From Geopsychrobacter sp. (GTDB taxonomy: Bacteria > Desulfobacterota > Desulfuromonadia > Desulfuromonadales > Geopsychrobacteraceae), in assembly GCA_021647445.1 (NCBI GenBank), contig JAKIUS010000011.1, positions 1-12,086 of the forward strand: a stretch of DNA of 12,086 bases, read 5' to 3'. Numbering within the stretch: the stretch's first letter is position 1; the number at the start of each line of letters is the position of its first letter. Made by a program: the position numbers and the translations under genes. Shown here in pieces: positions 3,794 to 11,290 of this stretch. The notes under the pieces were generated by a model that saw only the letters and a list, made by a program, of their open reading frames with translations, was not told the origin of the DNA and made no database searches.

Positions 3794-3804
3794 GGGTGGA
3801 CAAG

Positions 3805-3866
3805 GTTCGACGTTCTAAGTTCGACGTTCCAAGTTAACACCGAACCTTGAACATCGAACATCGAAC
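3805..3866. repeat. Palindromic heptad-repeat element between recQ and xth
   Basis: GTTC occurs at 3805, 3812, 3819 and 3826, exactly seven bases apart. GAAC occurs at 3842, 3849, 3856 and 3863, also seven apart. The two halves are symmetric about a central GTTAAC (3833-3838), so the whole can fold into a 62-base hairpin in which every GTTC pairs with a GAAC and the three-base spacers pair only in part. It lies 11 bases after the recQ stop and 19 bases before the xth start. It may slow or end transcription from recQ, although no T tract follows, or it may be a dispersed repeat of this lineage. Confidence 0.8.
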
Positions 3867-3885
3867 AACAACCACTGGAGATTGT

Positions 3886-4701
3886 ATGAAAATTGTATCC
3901 TTTAATGTGAATGGCCTGCGCGCACGTTTTCATCAATTGCAAGCTCTGATCGATAAACATCAGCCCGACATCATCGGTCTGCAGGAGATCAAGGTTAACG
4001 ACCCGGATTTTCCTCTCGATACGATCAGGGCCATGGGTTATGAGGTGGTCTATCACGGCCAAAAGACCCATTACGGGGTGGCGCTGATGTCGAAGATCGC
4101 ACCGAAGCAGGTGCAAAAAGGTTTTATCTGCGAGGCCGATGACCATCAGCGGCGCTTGCTGGTTGCCAGTTATCCCCTTGATGACGGGCGCAGGCTGAGA
4201 GTTGTGAATGGTTATTTTCCACAAGGGGAGAGCCGCGCACACCCGACCAAGTTTCCCGCCAAACGTGATTTCTACGCCAACCTGCAACGCTGGCTTAAGA
4301 CCGAAGCCGATCCGCAGGAGTTATTGCTGGTGATGGGGGATATCAATATTTCGCCAGAAGAGAAGGATATCGGCATAGGTGCCGACAACGCTAAACGCTG
4401 GCTGCGCACCGGCAAGTGCAGTTTTCTCCCGGAAGAGCGTGAATGGTTGGCAGGGATCAAGGCCTGGGGCCTGACGGACAGTTTCCGGGAACAAAACCCC
4501 GATATCGATAACCGTTTTAGTTGGTTCGATTACCGTTCACGCGGTTTTGACGCTGAGCCGAAGCGCGGTCTGCGTATTGATCTTATTATGGCGACCGCAC
4601 CGCTGATGGAAAAGTGCCGTGCAACGGGGATCGACTACGAACTACGCGGCATGGAGAAGCCCTCAGATCATTGTCCGATCTGGGCAGAATTTGCATTGTG
4701 A
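3886..4701 (+). CDS. xth: Exodeoxyribonuclease III (AP endonuclease)
   Basis: Xth cleaves DNA at abasic sites and degrades duplex DNA from the 3' end in base excision repair. The 271-residue length matches E. coli XthA (268). Active-site motifs are all present: FNVNGLRAR with Asn7, LQEIKV with Glu34, NGYFPQGES with Tyr110, [14 protein letters not shown] with Asp152 and Asn154, LRIDLIMAT, and PSDHCPIW with Asp261 and His262. The start at 3886 is chosen because TGGAG (3876-3880) lies five bases upstream and [10 protein letters not shown] is the normal N-terminus. An upstream in-frame ATG at 3847 would add 13 residues encoded by the palindromic repeat and is unlikely. Its last 80 bases recur in diverged form at 6265-6344, so this 3' end may have been replaced when the fic islet arrived. 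Confidence 0.96.
4622..4701 (+). repeat. Left copy of xth 3'-end direct repeat
   Basis: These last 80 bases of xth, including the stop, match 6265-6344 at 68 of 80 positions, with one identical run of 23 bases (4636-4658 and 6279-6301). Apart from the final codons, every difference is a synonymous third-position change. The two copies enclose the fic gene. This is what integration or gene-end exchange at the 3' end of a conserved gene would leave. Confidence 0.8.
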
Positions 4702-5025
4702 CATACAATTTATTCTTTTAAACTTTAAGCGGGGGGAATACGGCCTGTTCTAGTCTGAAGAGGAGTCTGCAGGGTGGGTCTGAATTTGAAAAGATGATTA
4801 TGCCAGTTGTGAGGCAGAAGGTAGATGCTGGAGGACCGATCCAAGCTTGATCATGACATCTCCGACCATTTGGATAACGTCAACAAAATGGTTGGTTTTT
4901 CCTGAAAATGCAGATGAGTTGAGTTGCTGATATGAGAAGCAAGTTGTCCTTTTCTATAAACGTTGCGCGTGATATGTATAGAAATCATCATTTTGTATGT
5001 ATGTTGTCAAGGGAAAGAGGTGCGT
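4702..5025. other. Gene-free left part of the fic islet
   Basis: This 324-base stretch between xth and fic holds no recognised gene on either strand and is more AT-rich than the flanking genes. The minus strand has a 51-codon stop-to-stop frame whose end reads GKTNHFVDVIQMVGDVMIKL and stops near 4801. It looks protein-like, but I cannot assign it, and it may be a decayed gene end. The plus-strand frame over the same bases has a 26-codon ATG stretch (4824-4904). Sequence close to fic (about 4940-5000) is AT-rich and probably holds its promoter, but no hexamer pair stands out. Confidence 0.4.
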
Positions 5026-6114
5026 ATGACGCAGATCCCGTCACTATACCAGCTACCGGCCGAACGTTTTGAAACTCCTGCGATTCTGAAAAAGCTGACT
5101 CAGGCCAGTCGCAATCTAGCTGAACTCAAAGGGGTCGCCGCATCCATTCCCCATCAGGGTATCCTTATCAACACCCTTGGCATGCAGGAAGCCAAGGACA
5201 GTTCTGCCATTGAAAATATTGTGACCACGCACGATGAACTTTTTCAGGATGCTCTTTTCCCCGAGAGAGTGGTTAATCCCGCAGCCAAAGAGGTCACCCG
5301 CTATCGTCAGGCACTACGGGTCGGGTTTGAACGGGTGTGCCATGATGAATTGCTCACGGTGAACCATATTATTGAAATCCAGGCTGAACTGGAACAGAAC
5401 AACGCCGGTTTTCGTAAATTGCCGGGGACAGAATTGAAGAATGGTGCGGGAGAAACAGTTTACACGCCACCGCAACAACCGGAGCAGATCGTTAGGCTGA
5501 TGCGCGATCTGGAGAAATTTATCAACTCTGATCATCAGACATACGCAGTGGATCCGCTCATAAAAATGGCACTGATTCATCACCAGTTTGAAAGCATTCA
5601 CCCGTTCTACGATGGGAATGGCCGTACCGGACGGATTATCAATGTGCTCTATCTGGTTAAAGAAGGTCTACTTGAAATTCCTGTACTCTACCTCAGTCGC
5701 TATATCGTACGTACCAAGACGGAATACTATCGTTTATTACAAGCAGTGCGAGAAAATAATGAATGGGAAGCCTGGGTTCTCTACGTGCTGTCAGCCATAG
5801 AGGTGACAGCCGCTGATACCATTAAAACCATTCAGGAGATAAGAGTAGCCCTGATGGATGTGAAGCACCGCATTCGTGAGCAATACAAATTTTACAGTCA
5901 GGATCTTATCAACAATCTTTTTATGCATCCGTATACCAAGATCGAGTTCATTATGCATGATCTGAAAGTCTCTCGTCTGACAGCCACCAAATACCTTGAT
6001 GCCCTGACCTCTGGTGGTTTTTTGCAGAAGCATAAAAAGGGGCGCAACAACTATTACATCAACCTGGCGTTGACCGGGATTCTAACTCGGGATTCACTAC
6101 AGGAAAACTCTTAA
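5026..6114 (+). CDS. fic: Fic-family protein, class II, with C-terminal winged helix
   Basis: Fic enzymes usually transfer AMP from ATP onto a hydroxyl side chain of a target protein. The 362-residue product has the complete catalytic motif [12 protein letters not shown] at 192-203. Ahead of it is an N-terminal helix with SSAIEN (59-64), fitting the (S/T)xxxE(G/N) inhibitory motif whose Glu (here Glu63) blocks ATP binding; this makes it a class II, self-inhibited Fic. The C-terminal part (about 300-355, [20 protein letters not shown]) looks like a winged helix-turn-helix, so DNA binding is possible. The start at 5026 is chosen for GGAAAGAGG (5012-5020) with five-base spacing; an in-frame start at 4963 has no such site. 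No small antitoxin gene accompanies it. Such stand-alone Fic genes often sit in restriction-modification loci, which fits its flanks. The target is unknown. Confidence 0.92.
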
Positions 6115-6116
6115 TT

Positions 6117-6230
6117 CATGACCAGAAATCGCAAGTCAAATCGTCCGAAATCCTCATCAACGAGGAATCGACGCGTAAAAACATCCCTTCAGTCGCGCAT
6201 CAGTCGAATATGTCTGATGCCAAAAAACGG
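6117..6230 (+). pseudogene. Possible N-terminal fragment of a modification methyltransferase
   Basis: Directly after the fic stop, the frame beginning at 6117 reads [20 protein letters not shown] and then QSNMSDAKK. From memory this resembles the N-terminus of adenine-specific methyltransferases of type III-like restriction systems, where a phrase like TRKNIPTAEYQSV is typical. No methyltransferase catalytic motif follows, because the frame runs into the xth-derived repeat within 50 codons. There is no ATG at the head of this frame; the ATG at 6118 is in another frame. If the match holds, this is the stub of a mod gene that once followed fic. The assignment rests on a short stretch and is tentative. 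Confidence 0.35.
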
Positions 6231-6264
6231 AGTTTCTATTTGCCGTGTTTAACGGTCTGTCACA

Positions 6265-6344
6265 CAACGGGAATCGATTACGAACTACGCGGCATGGAGA
6301 AACCCTCGGATCATTGCCCGATCTGGGCAGAGTTTAATTTATAG
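6265..6344 (+). pseudogene. Displaced 3' end of a second xth copy
   Basis: The 80 bases encode [20 protein letters not shown] and then AEFNL, followed by TAG, the last 26 residues of exonuclease III, without the rest of the gene. Relative to 4622-4701 the bases differ at 12 of 80 positions, yet only one residue changes (Ala to Asn before the final Leu). So the copy diverged under selection as part of a working gene and is not a recent tandem copy. Its stop abuts the ATG of the next gene at 6345, the tight spacing of an operon, which suggests that this is the original resident 3' end. The frame is open back through the mod-like stub, with an internal ATG at 6210. Confidence 0.8.
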
Positions 6345-7016
6345 ATGAAGAAACGAAGGCTTAAATGGTTGTTGGCCCTTCTATGGGGGCTGTTACTGCT
6401 GGCGGTTTTCGTCCTTTGGCGCAAAAGCCATCTGCCGTGGCGCGAGATCCCTTACCGGCTGGAATCCGCACTGGAGGATTTCGGTCTCTACAAGGCGGCG
6501 TTGATTTACGTGGTGATTTATACCCTGCGTCCTTTCCTGCTTTTTCCTGCAACCCTGTTGACAGTAACCTCTGGTCTGCTGTTTGGTCCCTGGTTGGGTA
6601 TCCTGTTTACCATCATCGGCGAGAATGCCAGCGCTAATGTTGCGTTTTGTGTGGCGCGCTGGTTCGGGCGCGATTGGGTCAAGCAAAAATCGGGGGTGAC
6701 GCTCGCCAAGTATGAGCAGCGTCTGCTTGAGAATGGATTGGTGACGGTGCTGATTCTGCGTCTGATCATGCTGCCGTTTGATGCGGTCAATTACGGCTGT
6801 GGATTGACCGCAGTGCGGCATCGTGATTACGCAATTGCAACCTTTATCGGGATTCTCCCGGCCTTGATCGCGTTTGTGCTGTTGGGAGGAATCGGTGCGG
6901 CTGGAGCCGGGAATCGTTGGTGGTTGTTGGTTGGATCCTTGGTTTTTCTGGTCTTGGGCATCTTGCTGGCCCGTTGGCTGGGCCGTCGGGAGCAATCAAC
7001 GGACGCGAAGACGTAG
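6345..7016 (+). CDS. TVP38/TMEM64 (DedA superfamily) membrane protein
   Basis: This 223-residue integral membrane protein has a basic N-terminus (MKKRRLK), a first membrane helix at about 8-26, and a central VTT (SNARE-associated) domain at roughly 55-185. Domain landmarks are RPFLLFPATLLTVTSGLLFG, the following GENASANVAFCVARWFGRDW, and LRLIMLPFDAVNYGCGLT. A last hydrophobic helix and a basic tail close it. Relatives include DedA-type proteins linked to lipid carrier recycling and membrane homeostasis, but the substrate here is not known. The start directly follows the TAG of the xth remnant, with only a weak purine stretch upstream (GCAGAG, about 6327-6332), so its translation may depend on coupling to upstream reading. 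Its last 21 bases overlap the end of the convergent MFS gene. Confidence 0.88.
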   Translation: MKKRRLKWLLALLWGLLLLAVFVLWRKSHLPWREIPYRLESALEDFGLYKAALIYVVIYTLRPFLLFPATLLTVTSGLLFGPWLGILFTIIGENASANVAFCVARWFGRDWVKQKSGVTLAKYEQRLLENGLVTVLILRLIMLPFDAVNYGCGLTAVRHRDYAIATFIGILPALIAFVLLGGIGAAGAGNRWWLLVGSLVFLVLGILLARWLGRREQSTDAKT

Positions 7017-10362: not shown

Positions 10363-10417
10363 GAGGAATTAGCTCTATCTGTCAGGAGCCTGGGAAAAAT
10401 ATTTTGGAGGATTGATT

Positions 10418-11290
10418 ATGGGGGAATTAAAAAATAAAGAGCAAACGTTAGTCGTTTTTGAAAGCCAGGAAATACGCAGAGATTGGCATCAGGAGGAATG
10501 GTGGTTTTCGGTTGTTGATGTTGTTGGTGTACTGATGGAGCAGGATGATTTATTGAAGGCTAGAAAATATTGGAACAAACTGGCTCAGCGTCTGCGCGAT
10601 GAAGGAAGCGAAGTGGTGACAAATTGTCACCAGTTGAAAATGAAAGCCCCTGACGGCAAGATGCGCAAAACCGACTGCGCCAATACCGAAGGCCTTTTCC
10701 GCATCATCCAGTCCATCCCCTCCCCTAAGGCAGAACCTTTTAAGCGCTGGCTGGCAGCGGTCGGTTATGAACGGGTGCAAGAGATAGAAAATCCGGAACT
10801 TGCCCAGCAAAGGATGAAAGCCCTCTATGAGCAAAAGGGCTATTCCAAAGACTGGATTGACAAACGCTTACGCGGCATGGCCATCCGTCAGAACCTGACT
10901 GATGAATGGCAGCAGCGGGGGATCAAAGAGCAGAGCGACTATGGCATTCTGACCGCTGAAATCTCAAGAGCCACCTTCGGTATGACACCTGGCGAGTATA
11001 AAAAACACAAAAACATCCCAGCAAAATCAAAGGCTAACTTGCGGGATAATATGACCGACCTTGAGCTGATCTTCACCATGCTGGGAGAAAAGGTCACCAC
11101 CGAAATATCTCGTCAGGAAAAGCCTGAGACCTTTCCTGAAAACAAACAGGTTGCCCGGCGCGGCGGCAAGGTTGCTGGTAATGCCCGCAAGGATACCGAA
11201 AAAGAGTTGGGCCGATCCGTTATCTCCAAAGATAATTATCTGTCCGATCAGTTGCCTGGTAATGAGCAGCAGAAGCTGGAGAACGAATAA
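10418..11290 (+). CDS. Bro-N/antirepressor-type protein
   Basis: The 290-residue product has an N-terminal Bro-N-like domain (about 10-125: VVFESQEIRRDWHQEEWWFS, VVDVVGVLMEQDD, YWNKLAQRL, NTEGLFRIIQSIPSPKAEPF, KRWLAAVGYERVQE). Bro-N domains bind DNA in phage antirepressors and related proteins. The C-terminal region (about 205-280: NLRDNMTDLELIFTMLGEK, TTEISRQEKPETF, ARRGGKVAGNAR, GRSVIS) is shared with DinD- and RhuM-like accessory proteins that often lie in restriction-modification and other defence loci. The start at 10418 is set by TGGAGGA (10405-10411); a TTG at 10412 lies too close to it. The gene is intact, unlike the hsdM stub before it. It separates ubiX from mqnE in what would otherwise be one menaquinone group. 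The cellular role is unknown. Confidence 0.85.
   Translation: MGELKNKEQTLVVFESQEIRRDWHQEEWWFSVVDVVGVLMEQDDLLKARKYWNKLAQRLRDEGSEVVTNCHQLKMKAPDGKMRKTDCANTEGLFRIIQSIPSPKAEPFKRWLAAVGYERVQEIENPELAQQRMKALYEQKGYSKDWIDKRLRGMAIRQNLTDEWQQRGIKEQSDYGILTAEISRATFGMTPGEYKKHKNIPAKSKANLRDNMTDLELIFTMLGEKVTTEISRQEKPETFPENKQVARRGGKVAGNARKDTEKELGRSVISKDNYLSDQLPGNEQQKLENE

Follow-up and report, generated by a model that had tools for sequence, protein, structure and literature searches.

Islands at trmE supply a new gene end. Their entry at the 3' end of the gene is described in the consulted portion of PMC8409611. By homology-facilitated illegitimate recombination, as the excerpted account in PMC3240628 presents it, incoming DNA is held by one homologous anchor and closed by one non-homologous joint, with no recombinase taking part. 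A comparable anatomy is reported for T6SS effector-immunity loci and Rhs arrays, where the old 3' part gives way to an incoming one and ends up further downstream (PMC5361080, in the sections consulted). The probable cargo of the locus described below has relatives of its own: SoFic is characterized as a toxic abortive-infection protein, accompanied in Escherichia coli by a downstream antitoxin of 47 aa, AS1 (PMC12249575, in part), and the Streptococcus thermophilus SoFic is said, in the part of the source consulted, to stand alone.

The locus lies in a Geopsychrobacter contig, of which the whole stretch analysed, 12,086 nucleotides, is here called the window. It resembles homology-facilitated illegitimate recombination in the homologous anchor and the recombinase-free, non-homologous joint that we propose, although that process is known from laboratory events and the window's case is read from a fossil. 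With the T6SS and Rhs arrays it shares the displacement of an old 3' part by an incoming one; here, however, the gene is a housekeeping gene, the passenger belongs to defence and the displaced part is an 80-base scrap. Entry at a gene's 3' end recalls the trmE islands, but the window has no integrase and no recurrence, and no attachment core is shown. Domain make-up and a PADLOC match link the passenger to the SoFic anti-phage protein, whereas the window's fic stands beside a cut methyltransferase start with no antitoxin shown. Finally, in relatives the two enzymes of a BPTD_3080-type restriction-modification (RM) operon flank SoFic or DinD; the window differs in having no restriction gene and a cut methyltransferase. 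The insert has the look of one well-preserved instance of an already familiar type of gene gain, and not of a novel type of mobile element.

Two copies of the xth 3' end and the native junction

The xth gene (3886 to 4701, forward strand; Pfam Exo_endo_phos) encodes an intact exodeoxyribonuclease III of 271 aa, up to 85% identical to its congeneric counterparts. Its last 80 bases, the left copy (4622 to 4701), recur on the same strand at 6265 to 6344, the right copy, with 68 of 80 bases and 24 of 25 residues identical. When repeats are sought across the window, the direct repeat of 4622 to 4692 and 6265 to 6335 forms the largest family (92%; 65 of 71 bases over this shorter span), and window positions 4500 to 4962 match just one other place in the genome as a whole, the right copy (E 2.3e-22). 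The copies are separated by 1563 bases (4702 to 6264). Nine of the 26 codons at 4624 to 4701 differ between them: seven by synonymous sense changes, one by a residue (Ala on the left, Asn on the right, GCA/AAT, last but one) and one in the stop (TGA/TAG). All six changes within the first 23 codons are synonymous. Differences of this kind indicate that each end was a working gene end while it diverged. The left copy, ending EFAL-TGA, is the end that xth now uses and, by repeat search, junction and codon comparison, is the probable newcomer.

The right copy begins abruptly, a methyltransferase gene being cut shortly before it, and the full xth protein matches there only in residues 239 to 271; a right copy left over from a second full xth gene lost by deletion, which an earlier note on this DNA had named as grounds for giving up its reading, was not seen. 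The TAG stop of the copy is followed, without any base between, by the ATG of tvp38 (6345 to 7016, forward strand; Pfam VTT_dom), a VTT-domain (TVP38-type) membrane protein gene that synteny identifies as the native neighbour of xth. The note, made from the sequence alone, had described the 68-of-80 repeat, its almost wholly synonymous differences, an xth gene kept whole and a right copy abutting the tvp38 start as an original operon junction would, and in all of this it was accurate.

An xth match was present in 41 of 60 genomes (the window's own and 40 relatives), and 20 stretches, all from the same family, were compared, eight of them from congeners (G001 to G008). Read by eye and from alignment starts, the xth stop directly precedes the tvp38 start, at 0 bp, in six of the eight (G001, G002, G003, G005, G006 and G007). 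G004 is without tvp38 and the gene after it, and the contig of G008 stops about 109 bases past xth. The empty sites that the note had proposed to look for thus exist, and fic is absent from the xth site in all seven congeners that can be judged, G008 being set aside for its contig end. The right copy closes with EFNL-TAG, as xth does in G006 and G007; the EFAL-TGA of the left copy runs into other sequence. Because it combines the junction of six congeners with the end of these two, the right copy is the old, native xth end, a displaced scrap that the repeat, junction, xth-end and codon comparisons all describe, and it follows that the left copy and the 1563 bases between came in. No same-species empty site was seen among the matches listed, since none was close enough: the best 80 of 588 matches in a named-genome scan for xth include none above 67% identity (near relatives may be missing from it), and the best 120 of 8000 xth protein matches none above 86% besides the window's own. 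The join creates a 44-codon frame (6210 to 6344) that ends at the tvp38 start codon and has no known relatives among Pfam families; tvp38 has presumably lost its close coupling to xth as a consequence.

Several observations concern the surroundings. In G001, an internal deletion seems to have left only the start and the last 30 codons of tvp38 (L033 5505-5621). The spacer between recQ and xth (3794 to 3885) is repeat-like, with four further partial matches of 24 to 66 bases in the same genome, and for ubiD (647 to 1984) the identity to the six matching congeners is 44-52%, far below that of its neighbours nuoN or recQ. A BRO-N protein gene (10415 to 11290) is a second cargo gene; it matches the candidate defence model PDC-S13 (E 4.2e-121) and has no match at E 1e-8 in the loci of 20 relatives, not all of which reach beyond ubiX.

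The passenger gene, its flanks and the source operon

The passenger, fic (5026 to 6114, forward strand), is intact and encodes 362 aa. Fic_N, Fic and SoFic-like C-terminal domains are all present (Pfam), and residues 9 to 355 match the SoFic defence model PDLC03963 of PADLOC (E 1.3e-116). By domains and model the protein is a member of the SoFic family, with a predicted anti-phage activity by AMPylation. SoFic-like genes occur in five of 43 other family genomes at 46-58% identity, and an 84-residue SoFic start with 80% identity lies at a contig end in G025; among congeners, no SoFic match that spans more than half of the protein exceeds 34%. The fic leader (4895 to 5025, forward strand) is conserved from 4895 with G080, a member of another family, and from 4930 with G025. 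Over 1310 columns (window 4895 to 6201) the fic unit has 84.6% DNA identity to G080, whose xth protein is only 63% identical to that of the window, and fic has therefore moved between families. Plasmid records matching the Fic protein number 981 at E 1e-5 and 447 at 80% coverage (best 72%), and positions 6115 to 6344 have a single match in plasmid records, confined to the right copy.

As a counterpart of AS1, a 44-aa ORF at 6118 to 6252 was considered and set aside: it has no homologue and no Pfam family, and within 260 bases of the SoFic-like genes of five relatives a 44-aa ORF occurs in one, a 34-aa ORF in another and no ORF of 30 to 70 aa in the other three. A decayed methyltransferase gene start, seen in another frame, explains this ORF better. 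Rfam gave 0 matches. Promoter-like sites number one against 2.6 in shuffles, and terminator-like sites three against 1.5, two of the three lying inside the two xth ends.

That methyltransferase gene start, type III-like and cut after about 37 codons, occupies 6118 to 6233 (forward strand; matched frame 6135 to 6227) and is followed by about 30 bases without a match (6234 to 6264, flank comparison) and then the join. The frame 6117 to 6263 has a weak PADLOC match to type III methyltransferase (E 0.0035) and, in a search of 136 genomes of the order, matches six others at E below 0.001 (G111, G116, G004, G051, G080 and G131; 50-55% over 29 to 37 residues), each time at the start of a methyltransferase gene, which in G116 is 928 aa long. 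Such a match could not be chance. Since the match in the window stops after residue 37, some 30 bases short of the join, the insert does not end on the right as a complete element would. On the other side of fic, a probable dinD gene scrap (4849 to 4893, forward strand; 11 of 15 residues, 84% over 44 nt) reaches E 0.055 when the search covers the window and six loci and 8e-6 as a single comparison; it is short and could be chance. The gene behind the match, in G051, is DinD by NCBIfam NF008573 (E 8e-115). Positions 4745 to 4785 (forward strand) match one end of a repeat of two relatives at 82.9-85.4% over 41 nt. This end occurs at three places in G013 and one in G028, with different flanks and 75-97 bases from contig ends; it may be insertion-sequence-like, and its second end was not found in the window.

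The insert has a G+C content of 0.41-0.47, against 0.53-0.56 in recQ, the xth body, tvp38, mfs and ubiA. Every ORF of at least 60 aa within 4702 to 6264 overlaps fic, which leaves no room for an integrase gene, and no integrase family was found among nine stop-to-stop pieces compared with Pfam, eight of them wholly or partly in the flanks, where short remnants could escape. The absence of an integrase claimed earlier accordingly stands, as does an intact fic; the remainder, described as non-coding or decayed, includes on its right side the methyltransferase start. No restriction gene matches in the window, where only the methyltransferase start does, so that the restriction enzyme and full methyltransferase of a type III-like RM operon are not found there.

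Relatives preserve such operons (L208 73-5496; L210 1-5057; L206 2385-8946; L205; L207). The order is restriction enzyme, SoFic (82%) and methyltransferase in G131, and restriction enzyme (NCBIfam BPTD_3080 family), DinD and methyltransferase in G051. In G116 a 210-aa protein stands between the two enzymes, and in G111 and G004 the methyltransferase comes directly after the restriction enzyme, their aligned parts lying about 39 bases apart. Across these five relatives the operon type has a variable slot holding DinD, SoFic, the 210-aa protein or nothing. The window repeats the operon order in scraps, and its insert is, judging from these gene orders, a torn piece of an RM operon, comprising a DinD-like scrap, SoFic and the methyltransferase start. 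In G080, SoFic (90%) precedes a methyltransferase start that breaks off after about 28 residues (L209 2003-3180), with a Y1 transposase gene upstream and an arginase-family gene, on the other strand, after the cut. Because the methyltransferase start is cut in G080 too, the cut may predate entry into the window genome.

For EcoprrI, PrrC is a suicide backup of restriction. It is a long shot that the RM slot in this order likewise holds second-line genes, with SoFic as a suicide backup of restriction, and that the window preserves an operon survivor that re-entered the chromosome on a borrowed xth end, leaving the native end as a scar. No description of SoFic between a restriction enzyme and a methyltransferase was found in the literature covered, which lay mostly outside subscription journals and included sources represented in part.

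Origin of the second end

We give an even chance to the following account: an incoming piece with an xth end was anchored by homology in xth, joined illegitimately on its other side, and pushed the old end downstream. In the ancestor, xth would have been followed directly by tvp38. DNA from a related bacterium, carrying an xth 3' end and the torn RM operon piece with its DinD scrap, SoFic and methyltransferase start, would have recombined homologously within xth on one side; on the other, a joint without real homology would have formed inside the recipient's xth end, near 6264/6265. The outcome would be an unbroken xth closed by the incoming end, a passenger SoFic and the recipient's last 80 xth bases before tvp38, with no recombinase needed. 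Direction, donor and route (one-sided with linear DNA, or a single crossover with a circle) are the conditional parts of this account; the circular route would leave the same picture, both copies then being mosaic.

The displacement account draws on the native junction of the right copy (as in six of eight congeners), the six synonymous changes out of six in the first 23 codons, the methyltransferase cut before the join, the lower G+C of the insert and the movement of fic between families, and on the same anatomy having been proposed for T6SS effector loci (PMC5361080, in the part consulted). As expected of a one-off, a second end occurs in one genome of 86. Codon mosaics of the eight congeners, moreover, reach the identity between the copies in only 99 of 20,000 draws. 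As to how close the donor was, among the 69-base xth ends of 31 sequences the copies are each other's best match (0.913, six differences; next 0.884 for the left and 0.87 for the right). G006 and G007 likewise have ends at 0.913, with bodies at 0.898, and pairs with ends at 0.884 have bodies at 0.71-0.75, so that the donor may be anything from about 10% to nearly 30% away. Other results count against displacement. A tree of these ends, for which the note had called, is unresolved, setting the left copy with G010 and not grouping the copies, and in codon bootstraps, which do not settle the donor either, the left copy is the single nearest to the right in 3472 of 5000, with 607 ties. The left copy continues an intact xth, in which sliding identity and G004/G006 site counts show no clear crossover point; that site count, chosen after looking, separates body from left copy at p 0.037 only and does not settle whether the xth body is native. 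An xth-fic arrangement is absent from 44 family genomes, many of them fragmented, the nearest pair on one contig being about 52 kb apart. The methyltransferase cut, with its counterpart in G080, may be older than the entry. Of the element with its own xth end that the note derived from a related genome, the insertion and the empty sites hold up; the self-contained element does not, the insert being a torn operon piece.

The main rival, itself unlikely, is later erosion: a complete RM operon would have come in on a larger island or plasmid that entered the 3' end of xth, by its own integrase or a single crossover, gave it a new end and was eroded by deletions to fic. The methyltransferase start has strengthened it, and the scraps in operon order and the repeat end fit erosion of something larger as well. 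It can also appeal to the trmE islands as known cases of entry into the 3' end of a protein gene (PMC8409611, consulted in part), and to the repeat itself, in which seven bases are identical at the left edge and 23 in a row deeper inside. In G013, of another genus, 6.1 kb lie between xth and tvp38 (L043 6414-12560), and the four ORFs scanned there encode a ResIII/DEAD helicase that also has an S24 domain, a methyltransferase, a PIN-domain protein and a small nucleotidyltransferase. PADLOC models recognise three of the four, in two cases across only a portion of the model. Such defence-type cargo in the same interval favours the erosion rival and is the other cargo that the note had anticipated, but the G013 interval holds no copy of the xth end. 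No integrase match was found in the window's flanks, and a search with the last 59 residues of xth, which matched 86 of 136 genomes (one, G113, at 40% only), found a second end in the window's genome and in none of the other 85. The integrase gene and the repeated use of a site with end copies (here one of 86) that mark an integrase island at a gene's 3' end are thus both lacking. The note's hotspot proposal is weak, none of these genomes showing a parallel for an element that arrives with an end of xth; fic-less relatives carrying both copies, which would have told against its reading, were likewise not seen in the 136 genomes. Among the matches listed, and with subscription journals mostly outside the scope, no report was found of xth as an integration site for islands or integrases, or of horizontal transfer of a defence system in Geopsychrobacter.

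Tandem duplication of xth in this genome, with most of the second copy removed by a deletion as fic arrived, would agree with the copies being each other's best match among the 31 ends. We regard it as quite improbable: all six changes in 23 codons are synonymous, the native end and junction belong to the right copy, before which no further xth sequence lies, and the 85 other genomes have one xth end each. Marginally less probable still is an assembly artefact joining two strains of the sample. The metagenome-assembled genome is in 546 contigs and 71% complete, and the window is one whole contig; yet the window contains no N, the join at 6264/6265 lies in sequence unlike xth, and a join through a shared exact word would presumably need a strain with both features.

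Gene gains without a mobile-element gene are common, and the event is seldom legible. At this locus the recipient has kept its own gene end next to the incoming one, which lets the insertion and its boundaries be read, while the torn neighbours name the defence operon that was its source. Short second copies of gene 3' ends placed where the next gene begins could serve to gauge how often defence genes arrive in this way.
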